Shown here piece after piece: positions 28,308 to 42,635 of a DNA stretch of 64,000 nt. The translations under genes were made by a program, and so were the position numbers. Positions within the stretch are counted from its first letter, which is position 1. Each line of letters starts with the position of its first letter. The notes under the pieces were generated by a model. That model saw only the letters and a program-made list of their open reading frames with translations. It was not told where the DNA came from and made no database searches. Source of the stretch: Caenibius tardaugens NBRC 16725 (lineage in GTDB: Bacteria; Pseudomonadota; Alphaproteobacteria; Sphingomonadales; Sphingomonadaceae); contig NZ_CP034179.1 in the NCBI RefSeq assembly GCF_003860345.1, positions 2,464,001-2,528,000 of the forward strand, read 5' to 3'.

Positions 28308-29315
28308 ATGTCCCAGAAAATCCCCGTTCTTGTTACCGGCGGTGCCGGTTATATCGGCAGTCACGCGGTGCTGGCCCTGATCGATGCGGGCTGGCCGGTC
28401 GCGGTGATTGACAATCTCACCACCGGTTTCCGTTTCGCCATTCCGGATGGCGTGCCGCTCTACGAAGGGGATGTCGAGGATCAGGCGCTTCTGGCACGCA
28501 TCTTCGCCGAACAGCGGATCGGTGCGATCATGCATTTCGCCGGGTCGATAATCGTGCCGGAATCGGTGGAGAACCCGCTCAAATACTATCACAACAACAC
28601 CGCCAAGAGCCGTTCGCTGATCGAGGCGGCGGTAAGGGCCGGGGTGCCGCATTTTATCTTCAGCTCCACCGCCGCGACTTATGGCATCCCCGAGGTGTCA
28701 CCGGTTCGCGAAGACAGCCCGAAGCAGCCGATCAACCCTTATGGGATGTCCAAGCTGATGACGGAAATCATGCTGGCGGATACGGCCAGCGCGCATCCGA
28801 TAAACTATTGCGCCTTGCGCTACTTCAACGTGGCCGGGGCCGATCCGCAGGCGCGCAGCGGCCAATCGACCGCGGGTGCCACGCATCTGATCAAGGTCGC
28901 GGTCGAGGCGGCATTGGGCAAGCGCAGCCATGTTTCCGTTTTCGGTACGGACTATGCAACGGCCGATGGCACCGGGGTGCGCGATTATATTCATGTATCG
29001 GATCTTGCCGCGGCGCATGTGCTGGCGCTGGAGGCGCTGATTGCCGACCCCGTACGTTGCCTGACGATGAACTGCGGCTATGGCCGCGGCTTTTCCGTGC
29101 TCGACGTGCTGGATGCGGTGGACCGGGTGACGAACCGGAAAGTCGAACGAATCATGGAACCGCGCCGTGCGGGCGATCCGGATTCGCTGATTTCCGATAA
29201 TCGGCTGATCAAGGCCACTTTGCCGTGGCAACCCCGCCATGCCGATCTCGATACGATCGTCACGCATGCGATCGCCTGGGAAAGAAAGCTTACTGAAATC
29301 CGCCCGCAAGGTTGA
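28308..29315 (+). CDS. galE: UDP-glucose 4-epimerase
   Basis: A 335-residue extended SDR that interconverts UDP-glucose and UDP-galactose for envelope polysaccharides. TGGAGYIGSHAVLALIDAGW (NAD binding), STAATYGIPE (catalytic Ser region), YGMSKLMTE (Tyr and Lys) and RYFNVAGADP are diagnostic of GalE. DYIHVSDLAAAHVLAL and NCGYGRGFSVLDVLDAV follow. ATG 28308 was preferred over the TTG immediately before it. It is a single gene followed 83 bp later by rpmJ. Confidence 0.95.
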   Translation: MSQKIPVLVTGGAGYIGSHAVLALIDAGWPVAVIDNLTTGFRFAIPDGVPLYEGDVEDQALLARIFAEQRIGAIMHFAGSIIVPESVENPLKYYHNNTAKSRSLIEAAVRAGVPHFIFSSTAATYGIPEVSPVREDSPKQPINPYGMSKLMTEIMLADTASAHPINYCALRYFNVAGADPQARSGQSTAGATHLIKVAVEAALGKRSHVSVFGTDYATADGTGVRDYIHVSDLAAAHVLALEALIADPVRCLTMNCGYGRGFSVLDVLDAVDRVTNRKVERIMEPRRAGDPDSLISDNRLIKATLPWQPRHADLDTIVTHAIAWERKLTEIRPQG

Positions 29316-29398
29316 CTTCCACGCGTGTGCCCCTTAACGGCGCGGCTTCAATTTTCGCGGTCTGAGAATCATTCGAGGCCCGCCAGACGAGATAAGCC

Positions 29399-29524
29399 AT
29401 GAAGATTCGTAACAGCCTCAAGTCGCTCAAGGGCCGCCACCGGGACAATCGCGTGATCCGTCGCCGTGGCCGCACTTATGTGATCAACAAGACCAACCGC
29501 CGTTTCAAGGCGCGTCAGGGCTAA
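29399..29524 (+). CDS. rpmJ: 50S ribosomal protein L36 (zinc-free type)
   Basis: A 41-residue ribosomal protein, [20 protein letters not shown] then [20 protein letters not shown] and a final G. It is the alphaproteobacterial L36 form without the four zinc ligands (C+ versus C- paralogues; this is C-). A strong terminator follows 29 bp after the stop. It is transcribed alone. Confidence 0.96.
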
Positions 29525-29552
29525 TCAGCCCTTTTTGACTTCGGTCGAATAG

Positions 29553-29581
29553 ACGGCCAGTGGGTGCCACTGGCCGTTTTT
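29553..29581 (+). terminator. Terminator after rpmJ
   Basis: A perfect 11-bp stem (ACGGCCAGTGG, CCACTGGCCGT) has a GTG loop and is followed by a T run. Confidence 0.92.
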
Positions 29582-29727
29582 CGTGCGTCCGGCATCCGCA
29601 GATTGTGCGCTATTGCGATGCGGGCTGGTTTTCTCCGATCCGCGTTCGCTCGTCGGGAACCAAATTTGTGCCTTCCGATTGTATTTGCTTATCTATTTTC
29701 CCTGTTGGGGCATTGAGGGAGTAATTC

Positions 29728-30300
29728 ATGGGCACTTCGAAGATGTCGCCGCTCAAAATCGGGCTGTTGGTCATTGTCACCGGTATTGCCGCCATTATCG
29801 GCTTCAATATCGGCAAGAATGCCTCTGGCCCGATGATCTTGCTGCTGCTGGTCGGCTTTGTTGCCATGATCGCGTTTTTCCTCTCGGGAAACCGGAAAGA
29901 AGTGGCGCTGGACAGCACGACTGTGGCCGATGCCCTGCGCCTGCAGGCCCCCACGGGGAAGGCGCGGCTCTATGTGGTGCGGCGCGGTTTCGTGGGTGGG
30001 ATGCAGGGCATGGAAATCACCATCGATTCCAGCCATTCGGGGCAGATCAAATCGGGTCGCGCGCTTTTCGCCGATCTCGCGCCCGGGCATCATCTGGTCG
30101 GCGCGAAAATGGCCAAGGGCGGGAAAAGCTCGGCCACCTCGCTGGAACTCGATCTTGCGGCCGATACGGTGACCGTGCTCAAGGCCGGGACCGAAATGGG
30201 CGCGCTGACCACAAAATGCGTGCTGGAGGTTTTGCCTAGCCTGCCGGTCGCGCAGCAGGAATTGAAGAAAGCGCGGTTTCTGGCATGGTATCAGGCCTGA
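29728..30300 (+). CDS. Two-helix inner-membrane protein of unknown function
   Basis: A 190-residue protein. Two adjacent membrane segments lie at the N terminus (IGLLVIVTGIAAIIGFNIG and MILLLLVGFVAMIAFFL), followed by a soluble domain of about 130 residues. That domain has RLYVVRRGFVGGMQGMEITI and a regular strand pattern (AGTEMGALTTKCVLEVLPSL) resembling small carbohydrate- or ligand-binding sandwiches, but I do not recognise the family. It starts with ATG at 29728 after a GAGGGAG-like site and lies 16 bp before the HAD phosphatase gene, so the two may form an operon. Confidence 0.7.
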   Translation: MGTSKMSPLKIGLLVIVTGIAAIIGFNIGKNASGPMILLLLVGFVAMIAFFLSGNRKEVALDSTTVADALRLQAPTGKARLYVVRRGFVGGMQGMEITIDSSHSGQIKSGRALFADLAPGHHLVGAKMAKGGKSSATSLELDLAADTVTVLKAGTEMGALTTKCVLEVLPSLPVAQQELKKARFLAWYQA

Positions 30301-30316
30301 TTATTCTGGAAATCGT

Positions 30317-30937
30317 GTGACCGGACAGGGGCAAATCCAGGCTGTCGTTTTCGATGTGGGGCGGGTGCTGATCGAATGGGATCTGCGCCTGCTGCTCCGC
30401 AAACTCTATGACGAGCCGGGCGAGGCCGAGTGGGTCTTTGCCCATGTCGTCAGCGAAGCCTGGCATGCGCAGCATGATGCCGGTTGCGATCTGGCGGACA
30501 TGGTGGATCGGCGCATGCGGGAATTCCCCGAACATGCCGCCGCGATCCATGCCTATGCCACCCGTTTCGGGGAATCGATACCCGGCCCCGTGCCCGGCAC
30601 ACCGGCACTGGTGGAACGGCTGGCGGCGGCCGATGTCCCCCTGTTCGCAATCACCAATTTTGCAGAATCGTTCTGGGCGGAATTTCGCGCGCGCGAACCG
30701 TTGTTCGATCACTTTCGCGATATCGTGGTGTCCGGGGTGGAAAAACTGGCGAAGCCCGATCCGGCGATTTACCGCTTGGCGGAGCGGCGCTTTGGTCTGC
30801 CAGCAAGTGCGATGCTGTTTGTCGATGACAGTCGGCCAAATATCGAGGCTGCCCGTGCGCTGGGATGGCATGTCCACCATTTCCAGGGGGCGGAGGCCTT
30901 GGAACAGGACCTTCGCGCGCGGGGCCTGCTGGCCTGA
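30317..30937 (+). CDS. HAD-superfamily hydrolase (YihX-like)
   Basis: A 206-residue haloacid-dehalogenase-type phosphatase. Motif I reads FDVGRVLIEWD; having G where most HADs have the second Asp is normal in the YihX group (FDxGxVL). Motif II is ITNFAES, the Lys of motif III is in VEKLAKPDPAIYRLA, and motif IV is LFVDDSRPNIEAARALGW. Likely substrates are sugar phosphates or nucleotides. It starts with GTG (VTGQGQ). The gene downstream, on the other strand, is the broken comM. Confidence 0.86.
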   Translation: MTGQGQIQAVVFDVGRVLIEWDLRLLLRKLYDEPGEAEWVFAHVVSEAWHAQHDAGCDLADMVDRRMREFPEHAAAIHAYATRFGESIPGPVPGTPALVERLAAADVPLFAITNFAESFWAEFRAREPLFDHFRDIVVSGVEKLAKPDPAIYRLAERRFGLPASAMLFVDDSRPNIEAARALGWHVHHFQGAEALEQDLRARGLLA

Positions 30938-30964
30938 CATGCCCCGGGGCGCTGCCTCCTGCGT

Positions 30965-31837
30965 TCAGGCGCGTGGGGGCTGACGGCGATAACTCAACGC
31001 TTCTGCCACATGGATGCGCCCGATCTGTCCGGCCCCGGCGAGATCGGCGATCGTGCGCGCCACGCGCAACATGCGGGTATAACCGCGCGCGGACAGGTGC
31101 ATCGTTTCCGCCGCCTGCATCAGCAGCTTTTGCCCAGCCTCATCCGGGGTGGCGTAGGCATCCAGCGCAGGCCCATCGAGTTCGGCATTCGTGCGCAGAG
31201 ATGTGTCGACGAGCCGTGCGGTCTGGATTGCGCGGGCGGCTGCCACGCGTTCCGCCACTTCGGCAGATCCTTCGGCGGGCGGGGGCAGGGCAAGATCCAC
31301 CGCACGCACCGGATCGACATCGACATGCAGGTCGATCCGGTCGAGCAGCGGCCCGGATACCCGCGATTGGTAATCCGCCGCGCAACGGGGCGCGCGGCTA
31401 CAGGCCAGTGCCGGGTCGCCCAGATGGCCGCAGCGGCAGGGATTCATGGCTGCGATCAGCTGAACTCGCGCGGGATAGGTGACATGGGCATTGGCCCGGG
31501 CCACATCGATCTTGCCCGATTCGAGCGGTTGCCGCAGCGAATCGAGCACCGCGCGCTGGAATTCAGGCAGTTCATCGAGGAACAGCACCCCGAGATGCGC
31601 CATCGACACCTCACCCGGGCGGACGCGTAACCCGCCTCCGGTCAGTGCGGCCATCGATGCCGAATGGTGCGGGGCGCGAAACGGGCGCGTACGGTTGATC
31701 CGTCCCTCTTCCAGCGTGCCAGCGACCGAGGCGACCATCGAAACTTCCAGCGCTTCGGCAGGGGTCAGTGCCGGAAGGATGCCGGGCAGGCAGGCTGCCA
31801 TCAGGCTCTTTCCTGCACCGGGCGGGCCGACCAGCAG
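30965..31837 (-). pseudogene. comM: comM (YifB), 3' part, split by an integrated element
   Basis: The C-terminal part of the magnesium-chelatase-like AAA+ helicase ComM, which promotes branch migration during natural transformation. This fragment starts in the Walker A loop (VLLVGPPGAGKSLM, encoded at 31799-31840) and contains RAPHHSASMAALTGGG, FLDELPEF, LIAAMNPCRCG and the end LSARGYTRMLRVARTIADL. Upstream of the Walker A codons the frame hits a TAG at 31841-31843 that belongs to the element. The 5' half is at 40008-40645. The fragment could only be translated from an internal ATG at 31801 and would lack the P-loop. Confidence 0.95.
31821..31837. other. Left attachment half-site (comM side) of the integrated element
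   Basis: The junction between comM and the element is at the AG dinucleotide 31836-31837. The comM side carries GGCGGGC at 31821-31827, eight bases before the AG. The matching inverted arm GCCCGCC lies eight bases beyond the AG at the right junction. From here the sequence leaves comM, and the serine integrase gene follows 73 bp on. Confidence 0.75.
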
Positions 31838-31910
31838 AACCTACGGAGCCTGTGGACCCGATTTGTCCCTCACCATTGATTTGGGAAACATCGCAACACA
31901 GGAGAACTTG

Positions 31911-33515
31911 ATGGCAACCGCACCGATCTGCGCGCTCGAAGAGGCACCGCGCGTATACAGCTACACCCGCTTTTCGACGCCCGAACAGGCGGAAGGCGAC
32001 AGCCAAAGGCGGCAGGCGGACGGCGCGCGCCGCTGGATGGAGCGGAAGAACGCTGAGCGGGCGGCTCAAGGCCTTTCCCTGCTCGCGTTGGATGAAAGGC
32101 TGAGCCTGTCGGACCTTGGCGTCTCGGCATATCGGGGGACGAATATCGGAGAGGATAAAGGGCTCGGGGGCTTCCTACGCGCTTGCCGGGACGGACTGAT
32201 CGCGCCGGGTTCTTACCTGCTCGTCGAAAGCCTTGATCGCATCAGCCGCATGACGCCCCGGCGGGTTTCAAGGTTGCTTGACGACATCGTTGACGCTGGC
32301 GTGGTCATTGCAACGCTAAGCGACGGACAGGAGTATGACGCCGATAGGCTGGACGGTGACCCGACAGCGCTCCTGATCGCACTTATGGTCTCATGGCGTG
32401 CCCATGAGGAAAGCAAGATGAAGGGGCAGAGGATCGGTGAAGTGTGGAAGGAGAAGCGGCGTCGGGTTCGCGCTGGCCTTGATGCCAAGTTAACCGGTAG
32501 GTGCCCCGGATGGCTCCATTGGACGACCGAAGGCTGGCAGGAACGGCTTTCGCACGGTGAAGCGGTCCGCCGCATCTATCGCATGACCATCGACGGCATG
32601 GGGGAACACAAGATAGCGCGGTGCTTTAACGCCGAAGGCGTGCCGGTAATGGGGCGGGGCAAGATGTGGCACAGGTCTACCGTGTCGAAGATTTTGCGCA
32701 ATCCTGCCGTGATTGGCACGTTAGTGCCGGGGCAAATGCATCACACGGACGGGAAGGCAGAGCGCGTTCTTGAACCGCCTATCCCTAATGTGTTCCCTGC
32801 GGTCATCTCGCAGGCTGATTGGACGACTGTTCGGGCCTTGAAGGATGGCATTGCGCGTGCGGTCCGGGGGCGGGGGGCAAATGCCCCACTGTCAAATATC
32901 TTTGCAGGGCTGGCACGGTGTCCCGAGTGCGGCGCTGCAATGACCCGTGTTTACAAGGGGAGCGGGCCGAAGTGCGGGAAGCCGAAGCTGGTTTGCACTA
33001 AGGCAAAGGCAGGGGCGGCGTCTCATTCGTATCGTTCGATAACGCTGCCCGATTTGCACGATGCCTTTGAGCGGGGATGGCAGCGGCTGGTCGCTGAGGT
33101 TCCAGCAGGTAATGCCGGTACCGAACTGGACCGCGATCATGCGGACTTGTGTGGCACTATCGATGCGGCGGAGCGGGAGTTGGCTGATCTGACTGCCAGA
33201 TTCGAACGGTCACCTTCTAGTGCCCTGTCAGTTCGCCTGCGCGCGCTGAATGCGACGTTGGCTTCCTATCGTGCGGACATGGATGCGTTAGAGCATCGGC
33301 AGGCGCTAGCGGATCATGGCCTTGTAGCGTCTCGCGTAGGGGCACTTGCTGATCTGCTCGAACCTGAAGAGGGGGAGCCCGGTAATGTTGCAAAGGTGAA
33401 CGCCTGCCTCCGTACGCTCTTCTCGGGCGTGACCATCGATTACCTAACCGGACAGCTCCGCTTCCAATGGCGGCAAGGAGGCGAGACCCCAATAACCTAC
33501 GCTTGGGTGGAATAG
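31911..33515 (+). CDS. Large serine recombinase (integrase of the element)
   Basis: A 534-residue large serine recombinase. Catalytic domain (residues 15-170): YSYTRFSTPEQAEGDSQRRQ with the nucleophile Ser, then SLDRISRMTPRRVSRLLDDI. Recombinase domain: YRMTIDGMGEHKIARCFNAE and STVSKILRNPAVIGTL. Zinc ribbon: CPECGAAMTRVYKG and CGKPKLVCTKAKAG. The C-terminal helical part is probably the coiled-coil that controls direction. The ATG at 31911 has AGGAG upstream; the frame is open further back through the junction but that is not coding. It should catalyse attB x attP integration at comM. Confidence 0.93.
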   Translation: MATAPICALEEAPRVYSYTRFSTPEQAEGDSQRRQADGARRWMERKNAERAAQGLSLLALDERLSLSDLGVSAYRGTNIGEDKGLGGFLRACRDGLIAPGSYLLVESLDRISRMTPRRVSRLLDDIVDAGVVIATLSDGQEYDADRLDGDPTALLIALMVSWRAHEESKMKGQRIGEVWKEKRRRVRAGLDAKLTGRCPGWLHWTTEGWQERLSHGEAVRRIYRMTIDGMGEHKIARCFNAEGVPVMGRGKMWHRSTVSKILRNPAVIGTLVPGQMHHTDGKAERVLEPPIPNVFPAVISQADWTTVRALKDGIARAVRGRGANAPLSNIFAGLARCPECGAAMTRVYKGSGPKCGKPKLVCTKAKAGAASHSYRSITLPDLHDAFERGWQRLVAEVPAGNAGTELDRDHADLCGTIDAAERELADLTARFERSPSSALSVRLRALNATLASYRADMDALEHRQALADHGLVASRVGALADLLEPEEGEPGNVAKVNACLRTLFSGVTIDYLTGQLRFQWRQGGETPITYAWVE

Positions 33516-33675
33516 TGGCGAGGTGGGCAGTGATAGTCGTCAAACTGGTCGTTGCCACGCAGTCTCTAGCGCCAAAGCCTCGGGCGTCTGTGAAGGCGTC
33601 CGGGGCCTCCCTTTTATCAGGGCGGCAATGCGATCCGCCACCGCTCTGGCCCCTGTGGACCACGAAGGGGCACCG

Positions 33676-34005
33676 ATGATTGACGCGCGGGGCCTGCATG
33701 GCTGGCTGCGTGTTGGCGCAGCTTTCAATGTATGGATCAATCGCCGCATCGTGGAATATGGTTTTGAAAGCGGCGTCGATTTTCAATCAAAACTGATCGA
33801 AAAAGAAGGACGCGGTCGGCGGCAGCGGGCCTACCACCTCACAATCGACATGGCCAAGGAACTGGCGATGGTCGAGCGCACCGACATTGGCCGCATGACC
33901 CGCCGGTACTTCATCAAGATGGAGCAAGCGGCTGTCCAGATGGCTGCGGATCACGTGGTCAACGGCACGCCTGAAGCAATCCCTCGGAATAGTTCGATAA
34001 GTTGA
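33676..34005 (+). CDS. AntA/AntB-type antirepressor domain protein
   Basis: A 109-residue protein matching the AntA/AntB antirepressor domain almost throughout: IDARGLHGWLRVGAAFNVWI, RRIVEYGFESGVDFQSKLIE, AYHLTIDMAKELAMVERTD and TRRYFIKMEQAA. In phages such proteins relieve repressor control; here it may tune the element's own genes or respond to a superinfecting phage. The usual second domain (Phage_pRha or KilAC type) is missing, so it is a short form. The ATG at 33676 has GAAGGGG six bases upstream. Confidence 0.88.
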   Translation: MIDARGLHGWLRVGAAFNVWINRRIVEYGFESGVDFQSKLIEKEGRGRRQRAYHLTIDMAKELAMVERTDIGRMTRRYFIKMEQAAVQMAADHVVNGTPEAIPRNSSIS

Positions 34006-34206
34006 ACAATCGCGAGAGGGCGCATTCAGGGTCGTTTGAGGGCGATTATTCGAAATGCAGTGCCTTCCGGCGTTCGCTTGCGATCACTGCTGTGCGGCCT
34101 TGTGGGCGGCGTTTAGGGGCGGGCGATTGCCCCTCACCATTGGTTTATAGAAACATTTTTCTGCCAGCCATTTTGCCAACTCAATTTAATCGAATGGAAT
34201 GACCGC

Positions 34207-34443
34207 ATGATCACGAACCACAACGCCCGCCGTGCTGCCCGCATTGATAACGGATTTACGGCTCCGCGTGCGCCGACCGCCGCAGAACCGACGCTGACTG
34301 TGCGCATTCAGGATATGACGCCTGAACAGGTCGGTTTTGTCATTGAACTCCTTTCACGGATGTCGGTTGCCGATGAAGATGTGTTGCTCAATGGTGCGGG
34401 CTGCCGGTTTCTCGCTGAGGCAACCGCGAGCGGGCGGGCATAA
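34207..34443 (+). CDS. Small hypothetical protein of the element
   Basis: A 78-residue protein that I do not recognise. A basic N terminus (MITNHNARRAARIDNG) is followed by an Ala/Pro linker and a folded-looking C-terminal half (VRIQDMTPEQVGFVIELLSR, then MSVADEDVLLNGAGC). A GGA-type ribosome site lies upstream. Codon use is normal. No cognate repressor gene is seen nearby. Confidence 0.6.
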   Translation: MITNHNARRAARIDNGFTAPRAPTAAEPTLTVRIQDMTPEQVGFVIELLSRMSVADEDVLLNGAGCRFLAEATASGRA

Positions 34444-34852
34444 GGGAGGCCGAAACGGCGGTTGCAATGTGTGACCGCCGGGAGGAAATCGAGTAACAGC
34501 CCCGCCCAAACTTCCAGTATCGATTACCCCTCACCCTTGGAGGAAGAGAACCCCGCCCCCCGGTCAGATATTGTAGGTTTACCTTAAGGATAACCTAAGG
34601 ATTCCTTCAGTGCACCAAGGGGGCTGAAGGCTCGTTCGTTGGTGTGCATTGGGATGGGTGAGGATGTCTCCTCTTACCAGTCCCTACAGCCTGCCTTTCT
34701 GGCTCTCTCCTTCCACCCGCTTCGGGCCTGTCATGAACGTGCCCCTGAAGAGGGAGCATGGAAGACCGGCCACCATCTCCAACCGAATGCGCACGCTTGA
34801 ACCCTGTCGGTCTCCGATGGGGCCTTTCGCGTGCCAGTAGGAAACCCCAATC
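34444..34852. other. Non-coding stretch in the element with short repeats
   Basis: I see no convincing gene in these 409 bases. The notable part is 34576-34602: AGGTT...AACCT flank the palindrome CCTTAAGG (34582-34589), and the motif ACCT(T)AAGGAT occurs twice in tandem (34581 and 34593). This could be an operator, for example for an element repressor. A 63-codon frame at 34649-34840 has no coding character that I can recognise. Confidence 0.5.
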
Positions 34853-35077
34853 ATGTCTACTTCTCAGCGCACATCGCTGCGCGCCGCCATCAACGAACGC
34901 TGCCGCGAATGCATTGTCGATCCTCTGAGCCGTGGCAGCTGGCGCGAGCAGGTCGCCGCCTGCGTCAGCAGCAACTGCGCATTGCATGCCGTCCGGCCTG
35001 TGCCGCGATCCTGTATCGTGGATGGTCTGATCTGCCGCGCTGCGGTTGCCACAGTGAGGGAGCGTATCGATGTCTGA
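34853..35077 (+). CDS. Phage-type cysteine-rich small protein
   Basis: A 74-residue protein resembling short zinc-ribbon-like proteins common in phages and prophages: AAINERCRECIVDPLSRGSW, then VAACVSSNCALHAVRPVP. The C-x2-C ... C-x4-C-x-L pattern matches the widespread R-x-K-C-x-x-C ... C-P-L-x-P-Y-R proteins, but the second half departs from it. Its stop overlaps the next start (35070-35077), so the two are coupled. Role unknown; probably binds zinc and nucleic acid. Confidence 0.72.
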   Translation: MSTSQRTSLRAAINERCRECIVDPLSRGSWREQVAACVSSNCALHAVRPVPRSCIVDGLICRAAVATVRERIDV

Positions 35078-35237
35078 TAGAGGCAGCGTCTCGCCCGCTT
35101 ATCCAGCCGTACAGGGCCTTCGGGGCTGTCTGGGGTGTCTTGCCCTAGGCGCGGTGGTCATCGCGTTCTCCGGTCTGAAAATGGCCCTTCTCGTTGCAGG
35201 CGCGCCCGCCGTGCTGTGGCCTGCGGCATACCAATGA
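35070..35237 (+). CDS. Small single-helix membrane protein
   Basis: A 55-residue protein that begins inside the end of the preceding gene and whose stop overlaps the next ATG (ATGA at 35234-35237). It contains one clear hydrophobic stretch from about residue 20 (CLGCLALGAVVIAFSG, then a second hydrophobic part LLVAGAPAVLW). The tight overlaps on both sides support it as a real gene. Function unknown; in phage-like modules such proteins may be holin-like or spacer proteins. Confidence 0.6.
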   Translation: MSDRGSVSPAYPAVQGLRGCLGCLALGAVVIAFSGLKMALLVAGAPAVLWPAAYQ

Positions 35238-35551
35238 CGGGAAGCGCTATGAACGATGAACAGTGGCGGGCAGGGCCGACCGTGGCAGACCTCCCGCCCG
35301 ATATGCGCCCAGCGATCCTGCAGCGCCTTGAAGGCATACCCCAGGTATCCCGCAGGGCCATGGAGGCGGCGCTAGTGCGTGATGTGGCGCAGGAGCGTAG
35401 CAGGCTTATCAAACGAGGCGGTGCGCCTGACGTGGGGCCGCTTGCCATCCTTGATCCCAATGCGCCGGGGTCTGCCTCCTATGCGGAACGGCACCGCAAG
35501 ACCTGCACGGAAGTGATGCCGGGAGTGATGCGGGAGGATAACGGGGGATAG
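35234..35551 (+). CDS. Hypothetical protein of the element
   Basis: A 105-residue soluble protein, mostly helical by composition: VADLPPDMRPAILQRLEGIP, RRAMEAALVRDVAQERSRLI. It ends in a Gly/Pro-rich region and MPGVMREDNGG. The start at 35234 overlaps the previous stop; an ATG at 35249 is possible. I do not recognise the family. It is the last gene of a four-gene rightward run that starts near 34207. Confidence 0.6.
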   Translation: MTGSAMNDEQWRAGPTVADLPPDMRPAILQRLEGIPQVSRRAMEAALVRDVAQERSRLIKRGGAPDVGPLAILDPNAPGSASYAERHRKTCTEVMPGVMREDNGG

Positions 35552-35587
35552 CAGGCAGCCTAGAGGGCTGACAGCGAGAAGCGAGCC

Positions 35588-35896
35588 TCAGTCTGCTTTT
35601 GTTCGCGCGTGGATAGTCCGTCCCTTGCGCTTGGTTATGCGTAATGTGCCGTCCGCTCTTCGTATTGCAACTTCGACATTTAGCATGCGCTGCCCAAGTC
35701 GCTGGGCGATCTCATCAGGAGACCTGCGGGGAGGCTTAATCTTGCGAAGCGCGGCTTGCTTGGCCATTTTCTTTGCCCGTTGTTCGGCTAGTTCGGCTTT
35801 TCGCATGCGTTTCGCTGACGGTTTCGGCGGTTCAGTCGGGCCTTTACGTGATGCGGTTTTCTTTTTGGGGTTGCTATGCGGTTGGCGTGTGGACAT
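35588..35896 (-). CDS. Small highly basic protein
   Basis: A 102-residue protein very rich in Lys and Arg (NPKKKTASRKGPTEPPKPSA, KRMRKAELAEQRAKKMAKQA) with an ordered-looking end (RRSPDEIAQRLGQRMLNVEV, ITKRKGRTIHAR). It probably binds nucleic acid. The ATG at 35896, with AGG upstream, was chosen; longer frames up to 36154 are open but add Cys/Pro sequence of low coding character. It faces the rightward run. Confidence 0.5.
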   Translation of the reverse strand: MSTRQPHSNPKKKTASRKGPTEPPKPSAKRMRKAELAEQRAKKMAKQAALRKIKPPRRSPDEIAQRLGQRMLNVEVAIRRADGTLRITKRKGRTIHARTKAD

Positions 35897-36203
35897 CCAG
35901 CCTGACCAAGGGCCGATTATCGTTGAGCCACCTAAATATGAACCACGGCCCACTGCGATCATCTCCCTTAGCCACTCATAAAAACGGTGGGCAAGCGTGT
36001 AGCTGGCACGCCTTGATAGGGCTTGCAACGATGATGTATGTGGCTGGCATCGAAACTGCGAAAAAATCCGAAGGGGCATAGCGTATCCGACAGATGCGCG
36101 GTTCCCCCCTCGGGGCGGGGGCGTCTCTGACCTATCCCAAGGCCACCGGGGCACTGCCAGCCATGTTCCGGCGGGTACCCTCAGTGGCCTTGGGGTGCCC
36201 GTT

Positions 36204-36551
36204 TTACAGGGCGGGGGCTGCGAGGCGTTTGCGGAACGCTGCGCTTTCGACTCTCATCTGAGCAAGTAGCTCGTCGGCTGGCATGGCGCTGAGGCGTTCT
36301 CGCTTAGCTGCACTACCATCGGCCTCGTCTACGAGTGCCGCTGCATAGTCCCCAAGATCGTCAGCCAGCATAACAACGCGATGATAGTGCAGCGCGGTGC
36401 GTCTGGCCTCGTCGTCGAGATCGTCGAATAGGCCGGTGCCTTCTATGATCTCAGCGAGCAGGGCGTCCGTCTCGGGGTCCGGCAGGCCCTGAAGGAGCGC
36501 CGAGAGGCGCGCGGGGATTGCTGCAAGGTCTGCGGGTACGTCTATGTGCAT
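36204..36551 (-). CDS. Hypothetical acidic helical protein
   Basis: A 115-residue acidic protein with a perfect ribosome site (GGAGG four bases before the ATG at 36551). It is predicted to be nearly all helix: IPARLSALLQGLPDPETDAL, LAEIIEGTGLFDDLDDEARR, AADDLGDYAAAL-like segments and AMPADELLAQMRVESAAFRK. It is not recognised. It diverges from the resolvase gene, and the 256-bp gap between them carries inverted repeats. Confidence 0.65.
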   Translation of the reverse strand: MHIDVPADLAAIPARLSALLQGLPDPETDALLAEIIEGTGLFDDLDDEARRTALHYHRVVMLADDLGDYAAALVDEADGSAAKRERLSAMPADELLAQMRVESAAFRKRLAAPAL

Positions 36552-36699
36552 ATGTCCTCCTGTTGGTGAGGTGCGCAGATGGCACAGGAATGGCCCGTTG
36601 AGAATCCTGTTTATGGAATAAAAGTGAATATATTCATATAGTTCTGTTTGGTAGATTGTCTGCCAAAGGGAGCTGGTCTGCGCGGCGTGGCCGTAACGT

Positions 36700-36807
36700 G
36701 AGGCCGGTTATAGCTCAAAAGGTGTAAGTTACAGGCTGGGCTCATAACATATGTTGACGAAGGTTAAGAGCTATGGATATGAGCTAGGCAAACAGCACCC
36801 CTAACTT
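36700..36807. promoter_or_regulatory. Inverted repeats upstream of the small recombinase (res-like region)
   Basis: The gap before the resolvase gene contains the 10-bp palindrome AACATATGTT (36746-36755), an inverted pair ATAGCTC (36710-36716) / GAGCTAT (36768-36774), and a second GAGCTA at 36781. Serine resolvases act at dimer sites of this kind, usually next to their gene. The assignment as a recombination or operator site is inference. Confidence 0.4.
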
Positions 36808-37401
36808 GTGAGCCGTAACATGACGCACCGTATCGCCTATTTCCGCGTATCCACCGCAGACCAATCTATCGAAGCCCAGCGCGCCGCGATGGGAGGCTCT
36901 TTCGATCAGGAGTTTACAGACGAGGGTGTGAGCGGCGGCGTTATGGCTGCTGAGCGTCCCGGCTTTGCTGCCATGGAAAAGGCAGTCCGCAGCGGCGATA
37001 CCGTTCACGTCTACGCTGTAGACCGCCTCGGGCGCGATGCGCTGGATGTGCAGGCAACCGTCCGTCGTTTGATCGATGCGGGGGTGACGGTCCACGTCCA
37101 TGGCCTCGGGCCTATGGCGCGTGGAGTGGGGGAACTGATCCTAGCCGTGCTGGCACAGGTGGCCGAGATGGAGCGCCGCAGGATCGCTGAGCGCACCGAA
37201 GCAGGGCGTCAGGCCGCGCGGGCGTCCCTGAAGACCACCGGCAAGACCCATAAGGGCAAGGAAAGCCTAGGCAGGCCGTTTGCGGCTGACGCGGTTGCCG
37301 TGAGGGACTGGAGGAAGGTCAATGGGGCCAGCATTACTCAGACGGCCAAACAGTTTGGCCTCTCGCTTGCGACCGTTAAGCGGTACTGCGCTGCGGCGTA
37401 G
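36808..37401 (+). CDS. Small serine recombinase (resolvase/invertase family)
   Basis: A 197-residue intact resolvase/invertase. The catalytic domain has AYFRVSTADQSIEAQRAAM (nucleophile Ser), VYAVDRLGRDALDVQATV and VLAQVAEMERRRIAERTEAG. The C-terminal helix-turn-helix is GASITQTAKQFGLSLATVKR. The start is GTG 36808 or ATG 36820. Inside an element that already has a large serine integrase, it could resolve multimers or invert a segment. I see no second matching long repeat that would define an invertible region. Confidence 0.9.
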   Translation: MSRNMTHRIAYFRVSTADQSIEAQRAAMGGSFDQEFTDEGVSGGVMAAERPGFAAMEKAVRSGDTVHVYAVDRLGRDALDVQATVRRLIDAGVTVHVHGLGPMARGVGELILAVLAQVAEMERRRIAERTEAGRQAARASLKTTGKTHKGKESLGRPFAADAVAVRDWRKVNGASITQTAKQFGLSLATVKRYCAAA

Positions 37402-37410
37402 GTTCTCTTT

Positions 37411-37434
37411 GGGGGCCAGCTGCCCAGCTTTTTT
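37411..37434 (+). terminator. Possible terminator after the resolvase gene
   Basis: A short GC-rich hairpin (GGGC...GCCC or AGCTG..CAGCT at 37413-37429) is followed by six T residues, ten bases after the resolvase stop. The stem is short, so confidence is modest. Confidence 0.45.
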
Positions 37435-37471
37435 CGTCAGAGCTACTCAAGCTCTCTCGACGCTCTGCTGA

Positions 37472-37738
37472 TCATTGTTCTGGTGGGGTCGTCTGGCCAG
37501 AGGATGCCACGACGTAGATCACCAGTCCCGGCAAGGCGCACACGAAGGCGGTTAGCACGCTGGTGAAGTTTCCGAGGATGTGTAGCAGCCGGTCCGCCGC
37601 TGATTCACAGGATAGGATATAGGCACTTTCAACACATCCCGCAGCAGGTAGTAGAAGCCAGCTGACCAGATACCCGGCAACTGCGCCGATGCCTGCCATC
37701 CATGCCCCAACATGTGCTATCTTGCTGCGAATGCTCAT
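37472..37738 (-). CDS. Small membrane protein with two or three helices
   Basis: An 88-residue protein with hydrophobic segments at about residues 10-32 (VGAWMAGIGAVAGYLVSWLL) and 55-80 (ILGNFTSVLTAFVCALPGLV) and a cysteine-containing loop between them (GCVESAYILSCESAADR). A GGGGAAG site precedes the ATG at 37738. It is not recognised. It diverges from the 266-residue unknown protein and may belong with it. Confidence 0.62.
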   Translation of the reverse strand: MSIRSKIAHVGAWMAGIGAVAGYLVSWLLLPAAGCVESAYILSCESAADRLLHILGNFTSVLTAFVCALPGLVIYVVASSGQTTPPEQ

Positions 37739-37920
37739 TACTTACTTCCCCTGATCGCTCGAACTCTGCATGCCTTCCATCGGTAAGGGATGCAATCCTC
37801 CCATGCACAGGGGCGTTAAGGTGGCTGCGGTTGCGCGCGACCACCTTTTGTCCCGCTTTCCTCTGCCCTCTAGACAGCGCGAGGTATCCTCTCCTACGCA
37901 TGGCGATTAAGGGGGAAAGA

Positions 37921-38721
37921 ATGGCCGAGATAACCGATCCAGCACTTGAACTTGCTGAACTATGCGACCGTTTAAACGTTGAGGTTAGGATGCAGGGTGA
38001 TGCCTTCCTTGCTGAAGCCTTCGAGGTTGATCCTTGGTCTTCTGAGTTCTTTCAGATCGTAAGCAGCATCGGGCAGCGTATCGTCGCGCTTAGTTCCATT
38101 CTGGACAACCTAAACGGTAACCCGGTTGTCATCAGGGGTGCGCAAGATCACCTCTTCCAAATCAATCAGGCATTTCACCTGAACAGTTTCACGCGTCCAT
38201 GGATCGGTACTGGGCAAAAGTTCGTCGGTCCGGAACACAGTAGTCCCATACGAATGCTTTCGATGGCGATGCCTGCCGAGTATAGGTACCCGAAACTTAC
38301 GGGCGAAGAGGCGTTGGAACTAATTCAGCTGGTCGACCAGTTACTCGAGTGGTTGAAAGAACATCAGCTCAATGAGCGAGATTTCATTCGGGAGAGCTTA
38401 ATTGAGGGACTGGAAAACTTCCTCTTTCGCTTGAACAAACTGCACTGGTTTGGTTGGGGCTATTCGATTGAAAGCCTTCGCGATGTCATTTTAGCATACG
38501 TAACACTTGAGCGAGGTCTTGATGAGGCCGCAAATCCAGATGCGTCAGCGCTTCTCAGGAAAACCGCATCTACACTGCAGAAGATATTCGCCTACGCCGG
38601 GGTGGTGAAGGAGGCATTCGAGACAAGTGATTGGCTGATCGGTGCTGCGCGTATAGTGTTGAAAACAGGAACTGGGCCTGCGGTTGGCTATGTCGCAGGC
38701 TTCTTAACGTCGATTGATTAG
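37921..38721 (+). CDS. Unknown 266-residue helical protein, cargo of the element
   Basis: A soluble, mostly helical protein with a clear ribosome site (GGGGGAAAGA before the ATG at 37921). Segments such as FEVDPWSSEFFQIVSSIGQR, TRPWIGTGQKFVGPEHSSPI, RMLSMAMPAEYRYPKLTGEE and FLFRLNKLHWFGWGYSIESL look well conserved, but I cannot name a family. There is no signal peptide or membrane helix; the last 30 residues are mildly hydrophobic (LKTGTGPAVGYVAGFL). Codon use is more AT-rich than in the flanking core genes, which suggests recent transfer. Its position at the cargo end of a mobile element makes a defence or toxin-type role possible, but nothing in the sequence shows it. Confidence 0.7.
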   Translation: MAEITDPALELAELCDRLNVEVRMQGDAFLAEAFEVDPWSSEFFQIVSSIGQRIVALSSILDNLNGNPVVIRGAQDHLFQINQAFHLNSFTRPWIGTGQKFVGPEHSSPIRMLSMAMPAEYRYPKLTGEEALELIQLVDQLLEWLKEHQLNERDFIRESLIEGLENFLFRLNKLHWFGWGYSIESLRDVILAYVTLERGLDEAANPDASALLRKTASTLQKIFAYAGVVKEAFETSDWLIGAARIVLKTGTGPAVGYVAGFLTSID

Positions 38722-38729
38722 CCCTTCGG

Positions 38730-38962
38730 CCATTGATCTCCGTAGACAAGCTCACCATGGGGGTTCTCGCAGCTGTGGCAGAGTTCGTGGCTAACATCAG
38801 GGCAGAGCGGCTGCGCGACGGGATAGAGGCGGCGGAGGCCTAGGGCGTTTACAGAGGCCGTCCTGCCACAATCGATCCTGAGACCATAAGGCTGCAATGG
38901 CGGCTGGCGAGGCTCCAACGGCGCTCGCTAAGCGGCTGGCGGTGGCCCGCTCGACGGTCTGA
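38730..38962 (+). pseudogene. Decayed resolvase/invertase fragment (C-terminal half)
   Basis: Translated in pieces, this gap encodes the second half of a Pin/Tn3-type serine recombinase. VDKLTMGVLAAVAEF lies at 38742-38786 with ERLRDGIEAAEA after it. Then comes an in-frame TAG (38838-38840) and, in the same frame, GVYRGRPATIDPETIRLQ. After a frameshift, GEAPTALAKRLAVARSTV (38906-38959) is the helix-turn-helix end. The catalytic N-terminal half is missing. It begins right after the stop of the 266-residue gene and runs into the 3' end of the leftward gene that follows. Confidence 0.8.
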
Positions 38963-39773
38963 CGTTTGAAGAAGGAGGCGTAGGGCTTCCGGCGAGGGCA
39001 ATGGAGTCCTGCATTTTTGATCGTCGCGCCTGTTCACTGAGAGGTCGCGGAAGGTTTATTGGAGTGTGATCGGTTTCCCAGTCATCAATCAATGGCTGGA
39101 GCCATTCGCGCGCAAAGCTACAATGTTCTTTTAAGCCCGGATACCTCGGATGGGGGCGGGTAGCGAGTAAACCAATTAGATTCAGGGCGAAGGTCGCGGA
39201 TTTTGTGGCGTTTTCCGAACGAAAAATGACGTGTTTCCTCGACATACCCGCAAGTAGCCTTGGGTGTAAAACAGGTTCTTCCGGCCTACCGTGGGCATGG
39301 AGCGCTGTATGTCGAAACCTAAAGATGTCTTTTATCGGCTGTCTGATACTCGCGACAGTTTCATTTTTCAGCGCAAATCGTTGCTGAAAGGTGGCGGTTA
39401 TGATCCTCTCACGCCCACGTTTTCGTTTTGTAGATGTCGATGAAGGGGGCGCTACAACCTTGCATCTATCTCGAACGGAACCGTAAAAGGCGTCTATTGC
39501 TGCTGCGGATGCTACAATCCCATTCATGGCGGCAATCATTTCAAGTTCCAGTAAGTCTCCCTCGCGCTCGTTGCCATCGCCGGTCCAGTGCTGTCCTAGA
39601 TCAGCCGCCGCCTGCTCTGCGGCTCGCGCTTGCGTTATCGCGGTACGCAACCAGAGTGGGTAAACGTCGAAGCCAACGTTCAACGTCACATCGCTGGAAT
39701 CACCGGTCGTTAAGTCGATGGTGAATGAGGGGATGTGTATTGAGCACCCTCGCGTCAAATATATACCGTTCAT
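38928..39773 (-). CDS. Unknown protein with HEPN-like RxxxxH motif, cargo of the element
   Basis: A protein of about 281 residues. I do not recognise the family. The central part has a helical stretch AMNGIVASAAAIDAFYGSVR, a basic linker (TSTKRKRGRERI) and IRQPIKDIFRFRHTALHAHG, whose R-x4-H (RHTALH) resembles the HEPN ribonuclease motif. The last 30 or so residues are Pro/Ser-rich and are antisense to the decayed resolvase, so the original C terminus has probably been replaced. The start is the ATG at 39773 with AAGG nearby; a GTG at 39800 is possible. It is the last gene before the right junction. Confidence 0.6.
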   Translation of the reverse strand: MNGIYLTRGCSIHIPSFTIDLTTGDSSDVTLNVGFDVYPLWLRTAITQARAAEQAAADLGQHWTGDGNEREGDLLELEMIAAMNGIVASAAAIDAFYGSVRDRCKVVAPPSSTSTKRKRGRERIITATFQQRFALKNETVASIRQPIKDIFRFRHTALHAHGRPEEPVLHPRLLAGMSRKHVIFRSENATKSATFALNLIGLLATRPHPRYPGLKEHCSFAREWLQPLIDDWETDHTPINLPRPLSEQARRSKMQDSIALAGSPTPPSSNVRPSSGPPPAA

Positions 39774-40007
39774 TGGCCTTGTATACGGTTCTGCGATCAC
39801 CGATTCTAGGGGCGCAGCAGTGGATAAGTGGCATCACATGTGTGCACCCTACGGGAACAGCTTATCGAGTTTTAATCGCATGAGGTATAACGGAAATATT
39901 CACATGGATGGGGCGGCAGGAGTTTGAGGCGGGCTGTTCTGGACCGCGCCTCTCAGGACAGGTTTAGTCACTCCTGAGCGTTCAAGGGTCTTGCGGTCCC
40001 GGAAGTT

Positions 40008-40024
40008 AGCAGATTATGCCCGCC
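40008..40024. other. Right attachment half-site (comM side) of the integrated element
   Basis: The comM sequence resumes at the AG dinucleotide 40008-40009. The arm GCCCGCC is at 40018-40024, eight bases beyond the AG, and is the exact inverted match of GGCGGGC beside the left junction. The element side of this junction (GGAAGTT before AG) mirrors the element side of the left one (AACCTAC after AG). Confidence 0.75.
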
Positions 40025-40645
40025 CGCTGCCGCGATTTCCAGCGCGCGTTTGGCGCTTTCCTGCCCTTTGACCTGTCGGAGATCGGGGCCACTGGCCGTG
40101 GGCGTGATTTCGCCCGGTTGCGGTTCGGGCAGGCGCTGTGTCCCTTTCAGGTGGTTGAGCAGGCTCACCAGATCCGGCGCGGCGCAGATGGGTATGCCAC
40201 TGGCCCAGCGCGCTTCAGCCCCTTGCGTTGCGGGGCAGATCAGCCCCTGTTGCCGTTCACTGGCATGCAGCGCGGCCAACAGTACCCCTGGACTGGCGAC
40301 GATTCGCCCATCCAGCGCCAGTTCGCCCACGGCGATCCAGTCCACCAGTTGTTCGGCATCGGTCACGCCCATGGCCGCCAGCAGCGCCAGCGCGATCGGC
40401 AGATCGTAATGCGAACCTTCCTTGGGCAGGTCGGCCGGGGAAAGGTTGATCGTGATGCGTTTGGGCGGGAGCGACAGCCCCATGGCGGCCAGGGCGGCCT
40501 GCACGCGTTCGCGGCTCTCGCCCACGGCTTTGTCAGGCAGGCCGACAATCGCGAATCGCGGCATGCCCGGTGCAATCTGGCACTGCACTTCGATCGCGCG
40601 CGCTTCGAGGCCGAGATAGGCCACACTCGATACAAGAGCCACCAC
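40008..40645 (-). pseudogene. comM: comM (YifB), 5' part, split by an integrated element
   Basis: The N-terminal part of ComM: VALVSSVAYLGLEARAIEVQ, FAIVGLPDKAVGESRERVQA, PPKRITINLSPADLPKEGSH, YDLPIALALLAAMGV and the pre-Walker segment KRALEIAAAGGHNL. It then runs into element sequence (LTSGTARPLNAQE, then stop). The start is likely the GTG at 40645, with GGGGGA upstream, which matches the family N terminus; an in-frame ATG at 40693 is the alternative. The AAA+ domain is therefore cut at the P-loop, and this strain probably lacks ComM function while the element is integrated. Confidence 0.94.
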
Positions 40646-40809
40646 TGCGAACTGTCCCCCAAGTCCCCTTGCGGCGCCACGATAACGCGCCATTGCGGCC
40701 TGTCGAGAGGGTTGCGGGAAGCCCCGGAAAAGGCCGCGAAACATGGTGAATCTGCGGGCAACCAAGATCGTTTGCAAAGATGCAGGGGCAATGGGCGCAG
40801 GCAGCAGGC

Positions 40810-41550
40810 ATGCGTCGTATTGCAACGTGCCTTGCCTTCCTCTGCGCTCTGCTGGCGGTGCCGTTTGCGGTGCAGGCCCGGGTGGGCGATTCTCAGGCCT
40901 ATGGCGGAAGTGCCGAGCGTTTCGTTCACGCGCCGCCTGCGCCGGTTCCTGCAGGGCTCGCGCGTTTCGGCCCTTTCCGGGTGGTGGACGCGAAGACGGC
41001 GGCCCTGGTGGATGTGACGGACGAACATTCGCCCGCGCACTTTGCCGCCATGCTGCGGGCCTATCCTGAACTTGCCATGCTCGAACTCGTCGACTGCCCC
41101 GGCACGTATGACGATATGGCGAATCTCCGTCTCGGCCGGATGATTCGCGCGGCCGGGCTTTCCACCCATGTGCCGCGGGGCGGGTCCGCACGGTCGGGCG
41201 GGGTCGAACTGTTTCTTGCCGGGGTGGACCGGCAGGTGGACGAAGGCGGCGAATTTGCCGTCCATGCCTGGGCCGATGAGGACGGGCTGGAGGCAAGCGA
41301 CTATTCCGCCAATGCGCCAGAGAATCGTAAGTATCTGAATTATTATCAGGAAATGGGTATGGATGCGGATACTGCCCGTGCGTTCTATGCCATGACCAAT
41401 TCCGTGCCCTTTGGCGGCGCACGCTGGTTGGGTGCTGCGGAAATGCGCCGCTGGCTGGGGCAGAACGACCAGCCTGCCGCACCGCCTGCCGGGCCGGTAC
41501 AGGCTGTTCCGGTGCTGGCCTATCTTGACTTGAACGCCGGGCTCAACTAA
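40810..41550 (+). CDS. Exported ClpP/crotonase-like protein of unknown function
   Basis: A 246-residue protein with a signal peptide (MRRIATCLAFLCALLAVPFA). The mature part follows the pattern of periplasmic ClpP-like serine proteases. LELVDCPGTYDDMANLRLGR is followed by MIRAAGLSTHVPRGGSARSG and GVELFLAG, where the ClpP nucleophile Ser would lie in ARSGG, and then EFAVHAWAD, where the His would be. The usual SGG start motif reads CPGT. So either a divergent peptidase or an inactive relative. It diverges from comM and is followed by rpmH after a 92-bp gap. Confidence 0.65.
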   Translation: MRRIATCLAFLCALLAVPFAVQARVGDSQAYGGSAERFVHAPPAPVPAGLARFGPFRVVDAKTAALVDVTDEHSPAHFAAMLRAYPELAMLELVDCPGTYDDMANLRLGRMIRAAGLSTHVPRGGSARSGGVELFLAGVDRQVDEGGEFAVHAWADEDGLEASDYSANAPENRKYLNYYQEMGMDADTARAFYAMTNSVPFGGARWLGAAEMRRWLGQNDQPAAPPAGPVQAVPVLAYLDLNAGLN

Positions 41551-41642
41551 CCGCCCGATCCGTAATCAAGGTCGCCTCTTTGCGGGCGGCCCTTTTGTTC
41601 GTACCGCTTGCGGTGCCATTTTGAATTATCGAGGGTTTCACA

Positions 41643-41777
41643 ATGAAGCGCACTTTCCAGCCCAGCAATCTCGTGCGCGCGCGCCGTCACGGTTTCCGCG
41701 CACGCAAGGCGACCGTTGGTGGCCGCAAGGTTCTGCGCGCACGTCGTGCTCGCGGCCGCAGCAAGCTGAGCGCCTGA
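41643..41777 (+). CDS. rpmH: 50S ribosomal protein L34
   Basis: A 44-residue ribosomal protein, [20 protein letters not shown] then [20 protein letters not shown] and KLSA, a near-invariant sequence. It heads the rpmH-rnpA-yidD-yidC-yihA cluster. Two strong hairpins follow before rnpA. Confidence 0.98.
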
Positions 41778-41790
41778 TTCGGTTCTGACC

Positions 41791-41812
41791 GGATCGGGGT
41801 GTTACCCGATCC
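41791..41812. other. First hairpin between rpmH and rnpA
   Basis: A perfect 8-bp stem (GGATCGGG at 41791-41798, CCCGATCC at 41805-41812) with a 6-nt loop, 14 bases after the rpmH stop. No T run follows, so it is more likely a processing or stability element than a terminator. Confidence 0.7.
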
Positions 41813-41821
41813 GCGCAGGTT

Positions 41822-41885
41822 CCAGCCCGTTTCTCCGTCCGGTATCCTCAGGCATGCCCTGGGGCCGGACGGAGAAACGGGCTGG
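41822..41885. other. Large second hairpin between rpmH and rnpA
   Basis: A 21-bp perfect inverted repeat (41822-41842 with 41865-41885) encloses a further 7-bp stem (CCTCAGG at 41846-41852 with CCTGGGG at 41858-41864, one G-T pair). This gives a 64-nt, almost fully paired hairpin. It lies 62 bp before the rnpA start and has no T run. It may limit rnpA expression relative to rpmH or be an RNase III site. Confidence 0.85.
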
Positions 41886-41947
41886 TGGCGTTTGGGGCAC
41901 AGACCCACGAATCGCGCGCGGATTTCGCTCTTAACCCGGTTTCCGCT

Positions 41948-42376
41948 ATGGATATCCGCATGCAGCGGCCTCTGACCATTCTCACGCGCCGGGCGGATTT
42001 TCTTGCAGCCAATAAAGGCTTGCGGATCGCGCGGGCGGGTTTCGTGCTGCTGGCGCTGCCCAATGGCGGGCAGGGCAAACGCTTCGGCATCACTGTGACC
42101 AAGCGGATCGGCAATGCGGTGGTGCGCAACCGCATGAAACGCCGGTTCCGTGCGCTGCTGCGCGAAAAATTGCCGACGGAAGGGCTTCCCGATCACGATC
42201 ATGTGATGATTGGCCGCGAGGGCGGGATCGAGCGCGATTTCAGCCTTTTGCGCGAAGAACTGACCGTGGCCCTGGCGCGCGCGACCGCAGGGAAAGGCGA
42301 TCCTCCGCGCCGCCCCAGAGGGGCAGGACGCGGTACGGGGCGCGGTGCGGGCGGGAAGGTTTCGCGCAGGCCATGA
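41948..42376 (+). CDS. rnpA: Ribonuclease P protein component
   Basis: A 142-residue RNase P protein, which helps the RNA subunit mature tRNA 5' ends. [20 protein letters not shown] is the N-terminal family pattern. The RNA-binding signature is [20 protein letters not shown] followed by RRFRALLRE. The C terminus is an extended basic Gly/Arg/Pro tail ([20 protein letters not shown]), longer than in E. coli. The start is the ATG at 41948 or the one at 41960. The final ATGA couples it to yidD. Confidence 0.95.
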
Positions 42377-42582
42377 AGTACCTCCTCATCCTGATCGCGC
42401 GCGCATGGCAATTGGGTCCATCGCGCATTTTGCCGCCCACTTGCCGCTATGCCCCATCGTGCAGCGAATACGCGATACAGGCGCTTGGAAAGTATGGTGC
42501 AATCAAGGGTGGATGGCTTGCACTTAAGCGTCTATTGCGCTGCCACCCTTGGGGTGGGCACGGATACGATCCGGTGCCCTGA
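42373..42582 (+). CDS. yidD: Membrane protein insertion efficiency factor YidD
   Basis: A 69-residue protein with the conserved core [20 protein letters not shown], the [20 protein letters not shown] stretch and the end [16 protein letters not shown]. It is a small amphipathic membrane-associated protein that aids insertion with YidC. It overlaps rnpA by four bases and precedes yidC by 53 bp. Confidence 0.97.
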
Positions 42583-42635
42583 GCCAGGGAAAACGGGCCC
42601 GTCGGGCGTTCTGAATTCGGAAACAGGGATAATAC

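Follow-up and report, generated by a model that had tools for sequence, protein, structure and literature searches.

What split comM in Caenibius tardaugens NBRC 16725, and why at that point of the gene? The gene lies on the minus strand of the 64,000-nucleotide stretch analysed here (hereafter the window, from whose first letter all positions are counted), in a genome assembled as a single contig of 4.36 Mb. As read from the DNA, comM is interrupted by an insert of 8,172 bp, counting one of the two AG dinucleotides at its ends; 8,170 bp lie between the AG copies. An earlier note on this stretch had described an 8.2-kb serine-integrase element that splits comM exactly at its Walker A codons. 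The element and the split were confirmed, both by the domains of the integrase and by the absence of the insert from comM in the same genus. The wording on the position is slightly off: within HNLLxVGPPGAGKS, the second Leu codon contributes its first two bases as the crossover dinucleotide, and this codon precedes the first Gly of Walker A (GPPGAGKS) by three. We assign a probability of about 0.9 to the reading that the insert is an integrative island of small size, mobilised by the large serine integrase (LSR) that it encodes through recombination of its attP site with an attB site in comM, with a 2-bp exchange that cuts comM before Walker A.

On direct reading, the coordinates and sequences of the earlier note are correct. 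The AG copies occupy 31836..31837 (the attL crossover dinucleotide, CT in the sense of comM) and 40008..40009 (the attR crossover dinucleotide), and the integrated element extends over 31838..40007. The 5′ part of comM (N-terminal half, 40008..40744, minus strand, start codon uncertain) ends at 40008 with ...AAAGGHNL plus CT. The 3′ part (C-terminal half, 30965..31837, minus strand) starts at 31837 with the Leu codon that the core completes, continues as LVGPPGAGKS..., and has an open frame to the junction. Joining the flanks at AG gives GACCAGC-AG-CAGATTATG; the comM frame is then open through GGHNLLLVGPPGAGKS and HNLLLVGPPG is restored. Three genomes of the same genus lack the insert in this gene, and their comM proteins share 85-90% identity with the joined protein; the GC content of the insert is 58.0% against 62-63% in the flanks. 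The spacing from HN (or HD) to GPPG is four residues in all 33 intact comM loci examined (the three same-genus loci and 30 others; 31 scored by a strict pattern and two by a looser one), as the AG join gives. The residue after the split codon is Leu (CTG) in the window versus Met (ATG) in 31 of 31 tabulated intact genes, which we take as a strain-specific or later change.

The first gene of the element, next to the junction, encodes an LSR of 534 aa (31911..33515, plus strand). It matches the Pfam families Resolvase (PF00239), Recombinase (PF07508) and Zn_ribbon_recom (PF13408), all above cut-off in one protein, as well as the integrase family phrog_95 (8.4e-63). Residue S22, which we take to be the nucleophilic serine, is invariant across a 20-row alignment that includes the window sequence. 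By comparison, the three domains in a single protein, the conserved Ser and the 2-bp core between imperfect inverted half-sites identify an LSR system, and the comM halves flanking the element, with the LSR beside the junction, make it a comM-targeting one.

Both attachment sites are symmetric, as the earlier note had suggested. The proximal attP half-site on the integrase side (AACCTACGGAGCCTGTGGACCC..., 31838..31862) carries GACCC at 18-22 nt from the core, and the distal half-site (GGGTC...GGAAGTT on the plus strand) lies at 39983..40007; the inner flanks read GGAAGTT-AG-AACCTAC. Read outward from the core, proximal against distal, the halves agree at 14 of 25 positions, a value reached by only 0.1% of 5000 random 25-mers. 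Across 12 elements the halves share 174 of 300 positions versus 75.7 ± 7.4 for random 25-mers taken from the elements (0 of 5000 as high). Of 35 half-sites, 21 have a GACCC that starts 17-19 nt from the core and seven, in a second clade, contain CTACAC. Both ends were read for 12 elements, the window's included, and 11 of them carry one and the same core dinucleotide left and right (CT in eight; TT, GT and TG in one each). In attB, the arms GGCGGGC and GCCCGCC stand 8 nt either side of AG. Over 31 intact comM genes these arms (9-15 nt from the core) pair on average at 6.16 of seven positions; of 1400 offsets along comM (mean 2.02, sd 0.88) none gives a better conserved 7-nt dyad, and when the arms are lengthened to 16 nt the site comes second. 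This statistic is a ranking rather than a probability, as the arms were picked after seeing the site and the genes are related.

Integrases of this kind recur at the same codon. We searched 396 genomes of the order (22 with an LSR at E ≤ 1e-30, own genome included), 385 of the class (nine at E ≤ 1e-50, own included) and 398 of the phylum (33 at E ≤ 1e-50; 30 loci examined, 27 of them new), and the contig sets of further named genomes added five LSR relatives. The LSR adjoins the second-Leu codon in 18 of the 22 order-scan loci (own included), all five named genomes, five of the eight class-scan loci (own left out) and five of the 27 new phylum-scan loci. This makes 33 loci in all, among which LSR identity falls to as little as about 30%; G302 and G379, both from the order scan, carry identical LSRs. 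The closest LSRs in the named genomes are those of Croceicoccus, Erythrobacter and Sphingopyxis, and one same-codon LSR belongs to a metagenome-assembled genome of Verrucomicrobiales (locus L028; 38% identity over residues 13-368). Among plasmid and phage records LSR relatives were found only below 60% identity, and the pattern method found none in viral contigs. The comM codon as a target is a trait of this LSR family, and the 33 loci together with intact comM in relatives support the att reconstruction and the LSR mechanism. The site, its core and symmetry, the empty site in relatives and the recurrence at this codon among related LSRs are evident from sequence comparison.

In the mechanism that we propose, attP (about 22 nt either side of AG) would recombine with attB at the second Leu codon, and a 2-bp staggered exchange would leave hybrid attL and attR sites. 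With comM cut just before Walker A, neither half should give a working ATPase. Given a directionality factor, excision would restore comM exactly. We infer that the window LSR made the insertion and is still active. Only one ChlI domain of comM strength (133.6 bits) is present in the genome, and the gene is very probably inactive, because its N-terminal half lacks Walker A and its C-terminal half is preceded by an in-frame TAG just upstream in the element, with the first ATG, GTG or TTG start after the Walker A motif. The genome also encodes ComEC and DprA domains. No other copy of comM was found, and we infer that loss of the gene makes recombination of incoming DNA less effective, which may in turn keep the island from being removed by transformation.

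Several observations weigh against this reading. Twenty-two of the 27 new phylum-scan loci show no comM in their flanks; class and phylum loci were judged on 1.5 kb of flank only, where a miss is no proof of another site. The site model implied that related integrases use the same site, which is true of most order-scan loci but not of G338, G384, G016 and G057, and often not of farther relatives. In G338 (L022/L048) the related LSR sits in comM around codon 61 (VGLPDKAV), and the P-loop site is undisturbed. In G384 no comM lies within 54 kb of the LSR and a full-length comM is found elsewhere, and in G016 the LSR is near a contig edge, with one long comM match (E 1.9e-211) elsewhere; both LSRs seem to lie outside comM. 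In G057 (L069, L193; G057:C390) a divergent comM on the LSR's contig is split at the P-loop; its pieces are separated by about 19 kb, and the LSR lies between them, some 7 kb away from the closer junction; contamination is possible in this assembly of some 400 contigs. The element of G319 has unequal cores, CT and TT. Five genomes with P-loop splits (G189, G259, G387, G270 and G028) gave no LSR by tblastn with six LSR queries against ten stretches beside the comM pieces, three of them shorter than 2 kb. Two weak ChlI matches occur elsewhere in the C. tardaugens genome, at 28.8 bits (above the family cut-off) and 24.8 bits. No recombination directionality factor was identified in the element, and excision and integrase activity are predictions only.

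Separately, either GTGTAG or CTACACC, a half-site of LSR type, stands at the ends L169 (G189), L171 (G259), L174 (G387) and L175 (G270) of P-loop splits; the opposite ends examined in G189 and G387 (L170 and L173) are without this motif. These four are possibly rearranged or decayed elements, or carry more divergent integrases.

Could the element instead descend from a decayed prophage or conjugative element, or be a satellite that uses a helper? This is unlikely, but it retains some weight. The integrase and an AntA-domain antirepressor-like protein (33676..34005, plus strand; PF08346 at 1.9e-22 and phrog_5817, with relatives in L033 and L025) are phage-type proteins, and the comM halves of G191, G192 and G302 are 68-84 kb apart. 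Against such an origin, no phage structural or lysis gene was found, the PHROGs matches among ten ORFs (open reading frames) being limited to integrase, anti-repressor, DNA invertase and families of unknown function, and Pfam detected no relaxase and no type IV secretion or conjugation gene among the 11 window ORFs scanned. Compact relatives recur, at 5.0, 6.2, 7.2, 7.6 and 7.7 kb, which leaves room for a satellite. Readings of the element as a prophage, as an integrative conjugative or mobilizable element (ICE/IME), or as Tn7-like were rejected for want of matching genes in the scanned ORFs.

It is quite improbable that the element is a regulatory switch, in which programmed excision would restore comM at times when the cell requires competence. 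Except at the split itself, the reading frame of each comM half is open, joining them leaves no scar in the protein, and the antirepressor-like gene could suit such a role; but the relatives range from 5 kb to more than 60 kb and differ in cargo as well as in orientation, and so look like independent mobile elements rather than a conserved switch, and nothing in the sequence supports excision or its timing.

We give very little credence to insertion by some other enzyme, whether a transposase or the small resolvase or invertase-type serine recombinase of the element (193 aa, 36820..37401, plus strand; PF00239 at 1.6e-29 and HTH_7, with relatives at 75-82% in L027 and L031), with the LSR as a passenger. 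A second serine recombinase is indeed at hand, other elements break comM at other positions in the order, and some P-loop splits have no LSR beside them. However, it is the LSR and not the resolvase that adjoins the junction across the 33 loci, divergent ones included, the 2-bp overlap and symmetric attP of about 46 bp fit an LSR, and Pfam found no transposase or Tn7-type transposition gene in the scanned ORFs. A 6-bp overlap, AGCAGA (offset 8175, three bases away from the AG join), with the crossover elsewhere within it, is scarcely credible: it is the longest identical run shared by both ends among the offsets tested, but we rejected it because comM would be one codon shorter than all 33 intact genes, the three same-genus ones included, and it is in the AG register that both ends agree in 11 of 12 two-ended relatives.

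Returning to the integrase-borne island, we next consider the choice of codon. By inspection, five of the seven attB arm pairs are dictated by the protein, GGN GGN C (Gly-Gly-His) being set against GN CCN CC (Gly-Pro-Pro), and all 31 intact comM genes keep at least five of the seven. The near-palindromic attB is largely forced by these conserved residues. Silent mutation cannot remove the five pairs, because Gly-Gly-His and Gly-Pro-Pro are reverse complementary at these five positions whatever codons are used. The core-bearing Leu codon begins with CT in 23 of the intact genes and TT in eight; CTG and TTG are synonymous and their exchange alters the core dinucleotide, and therefore a silent change here could make the host immune. 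We tentatively suggest, as a possibility that falls somewhat short of even chances, that LSRs target comM frequently because its most conserved residues spell a palindrome, that a silent Leu change could immunise the host, that elements track such changes with CT, TT, GT or TG cores, and that a core change also flips the direction of insertion.

As far as is known, the central dinucleotide alone sets the polarity of serine-integrase recombination. The att sites synapse in either alignment and efficient exchange follows only from the parallel one (PMC3783163). In the 33 P-loop loci the LSR adjoins the C-terminal comM half in 18 and the N-terminal half in 15. On a tree of 58 LSRs the well-supported branches force at least seven orientation changes for either label, with several long branches unsure. 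A reversed Sphingopyxis element belongs to the same clade as the window's; counted from the integrase, its genes follow in the same order and on the same strands (LSR, AntA, 74-aa protein, resolvase), which argues for a flip of the whole element. Its integrase-side half-site resembles the proximal halves of related elements no more than their distal ones, and the half-sites alone show no polarity. Repeated orientation flips in comM would be expected if, at a near-palindromic attB, the core is what determines polarity.

How much of this is new? The earlier note had singled out the use of the comM P-loop by a large serine integrase as the interesting part; the use of comM by such integrases is already in print. 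Durrant et al. (2022, PMC10083194) reported that 12.4% of the LSRs predicted to be site-specific target Mg chelatase/ATP-dependent protease genes, and that competence genes are enriched among targets; we take the chelatase-type targets to be of the comM/yifB kind. Those LSRs, compared here by their published description only, likewise lie in a Mg-chelatase-type gene. For this target we give the codon, core, orientation and element anatomy, no such detail of which appears in the portions of PMC10083194 consulted. Most Wolbachia sr1WO phages sit in a magnesium chelatase gene, portions of which flank the prophage (Bordenstein and Bordenstein 2022, PMC9203015), and PMC5447182 records the same neighbour. 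Compared at the level of the gene, not the codon, sr1WO resembles the window element in having an LSR in a Mg chelatase gene with halves flanking (PMC9203015). It differs in being a tailed prophage, whereas no phage structural gene was found in the window element (PMC9203015). In Acinetobacter, AbaR and other islands are likewise mobile elements interrupting comM, and the interruption was linked to lower transformation, with the idea that it hinders removal of mobile elements (PMC11472951). AbaR is Tn7-like, in contrast to the LSR and 2-bp core of the window element (PMC11472951).

The Listeria LI/A118 and phiC31-type integrases share with the window LSR the Recombinase and zinc-ribbon domains, attP half-sites of about 25 bp and a central dinucleotide, and differ in target gene and half-site motif (PMC3783163). 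In those systems the zinc-domain motif lies 5 bp nearer the core in attB than in attP (PMC3783163). In the main clade here, using the inner 5 nt, the best of 16 shifts were 6 and then 5 bp (0.522 and 0.483; next 0.439); there was no peak with a 9-nt window, and the signal was weak in the second clade. The shift is suggestive only.

In a limited literature search we found nothing relevant on Walker A or the P-loop as a serine-integrase attB. What we add is the exact codon, the palindrome forced by the protein and the repeated flips, none of which was found in the portions of the literature examined. A statistical remark, that many LSRs lie in Mg-chelatase-type genes, becomes an exact, testable site with a proposed reason. 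For work on how LSRs choose sites and set polarity, the loci also provide a series of related integrases whose att sites are paired and whose cores vary naturally, and they offer a clear case in which to ask why competence genes are broken by mobile elements.

The remaining genes of the element lie between the antirepressor-like gene and the distal att half-site. A 78-aa ORF (34207..34443, plus strand) has no family match in the Pfam and PHROGs scans. A 74-aa Cys-containing protein (34853..35077, plus strand), also without a Pfam or PHROGs match, is 50-59% identical to proteins of the comM elements L030, L025, L029 and L027, and a protein of about 100 aa (35249..35551, plus strand) is partly common to L029 and L027. 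Two minus-strand ORFs, at 35588..36154 (start codon uncertain) and 36204..36551 (115 aa), gave no family match in the same scans. Just 5′ of the resolvase gene, at 36739-36814, is an inverted repeat, GGCTCATAA/TTGTGAGCC (9 nt, 89%, 58 nt apart), possibly a candidate binding or res site. No tRNA was found in 28000-44000, and there was no Rfam match in 31700-40100.

Three distal cargo genes follow: an 88-aa hydrophobic protein (37472..37738, minus strand; DUF2231 below its cut-off), a protein of about 270 aa (37900..38721, plus strand) and one of 290 aa (38928..39800, minus strand). None has an accepted family match in Pfam, PHROGs or PADLOC (the 88-aa ORF lay outside the PHROGs scan), and PADLOC gave no defence match among ten window ORFs. 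The two larger proteins have no relatives in plasmids or viral contigs, and their single-sequence structure models are of low confidence (pLDDT, the predicted local distance difference test score, 48 and 40, respectively). A likeness of the 290-aa protein to HEPN/abortive-infection proteins was an impression by eye only and is not claimed.

Cargo varies from element to element. That of G354 comprises a RES protein, a CAP12-type TIR effector and DUF2321; that of G323 is a type II restriction-modification set with Vsr; and in G319 a cytosine methyltransferase is accompanied by a protein that weakly matches restriction enzymes and by a weak match to reverse transcriptase. The scanned distal proteins of Croc, G140, UBA6174 and G248 had no Pfam family. 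A second small serine recombinase is present in eight of the 10 two-ended elements examined for gene content, the exceptions being UBA6174 and G323. The term "defence island" is a lead for the group of elements, unproven for that of the window.

Interruption of comM is not confined to this genome. A 507-aa comM query matches 377 of 396 genomes, and 58, the C. tardaugens genome included, have two or more matches as read from the table. Judged by eye from the match ends in a renewed search of these 58 genomes with G338 added, 22 of the 58 are clear P-loop splits and three more are probable (G014, G028 and G081). Other interruptions cluster near positions 245-250, 270-290, 305-315, 340-350 and 375-400 of the query, and some multi-match genes reflect frameshifts, contig breaks, a deletion (G168) or a second copy (G078).

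Some of these loci hold other kinds of insert. Compact inserts of 3.5-3.9 kb lie in comM near 245-250 and 307-314 of the query in L180 (G342), L181 (G123), L182 (G218) and L183 (G134); the two whose ORFs were read, L180 and L182, have a transposase-like ORF, by eye presumably IS1595/ISXO2-like, with a companion of about 148 aa. Two LSRs about 31% identical to that of L014 (L184 in G315 and L188 in G203) lie in comM near residue 368 in 532-aa numbering. In G076 (G076:C1 590182-643721), a single 5′ part is followed downstream by the comM 3′ end in three separate copies, each covering roughly residues 346-507 of the query, as if successive islands had each brought a comM 3′ end. In the Acetoanaerobium phage ANDSL2_ph1 (L071, PP197248; 3851-6011), an ORF beside the integrase holds an internal comM piece of about 135 residues from the P-loop on, as if the phage rebuilt part of comM on insertion.

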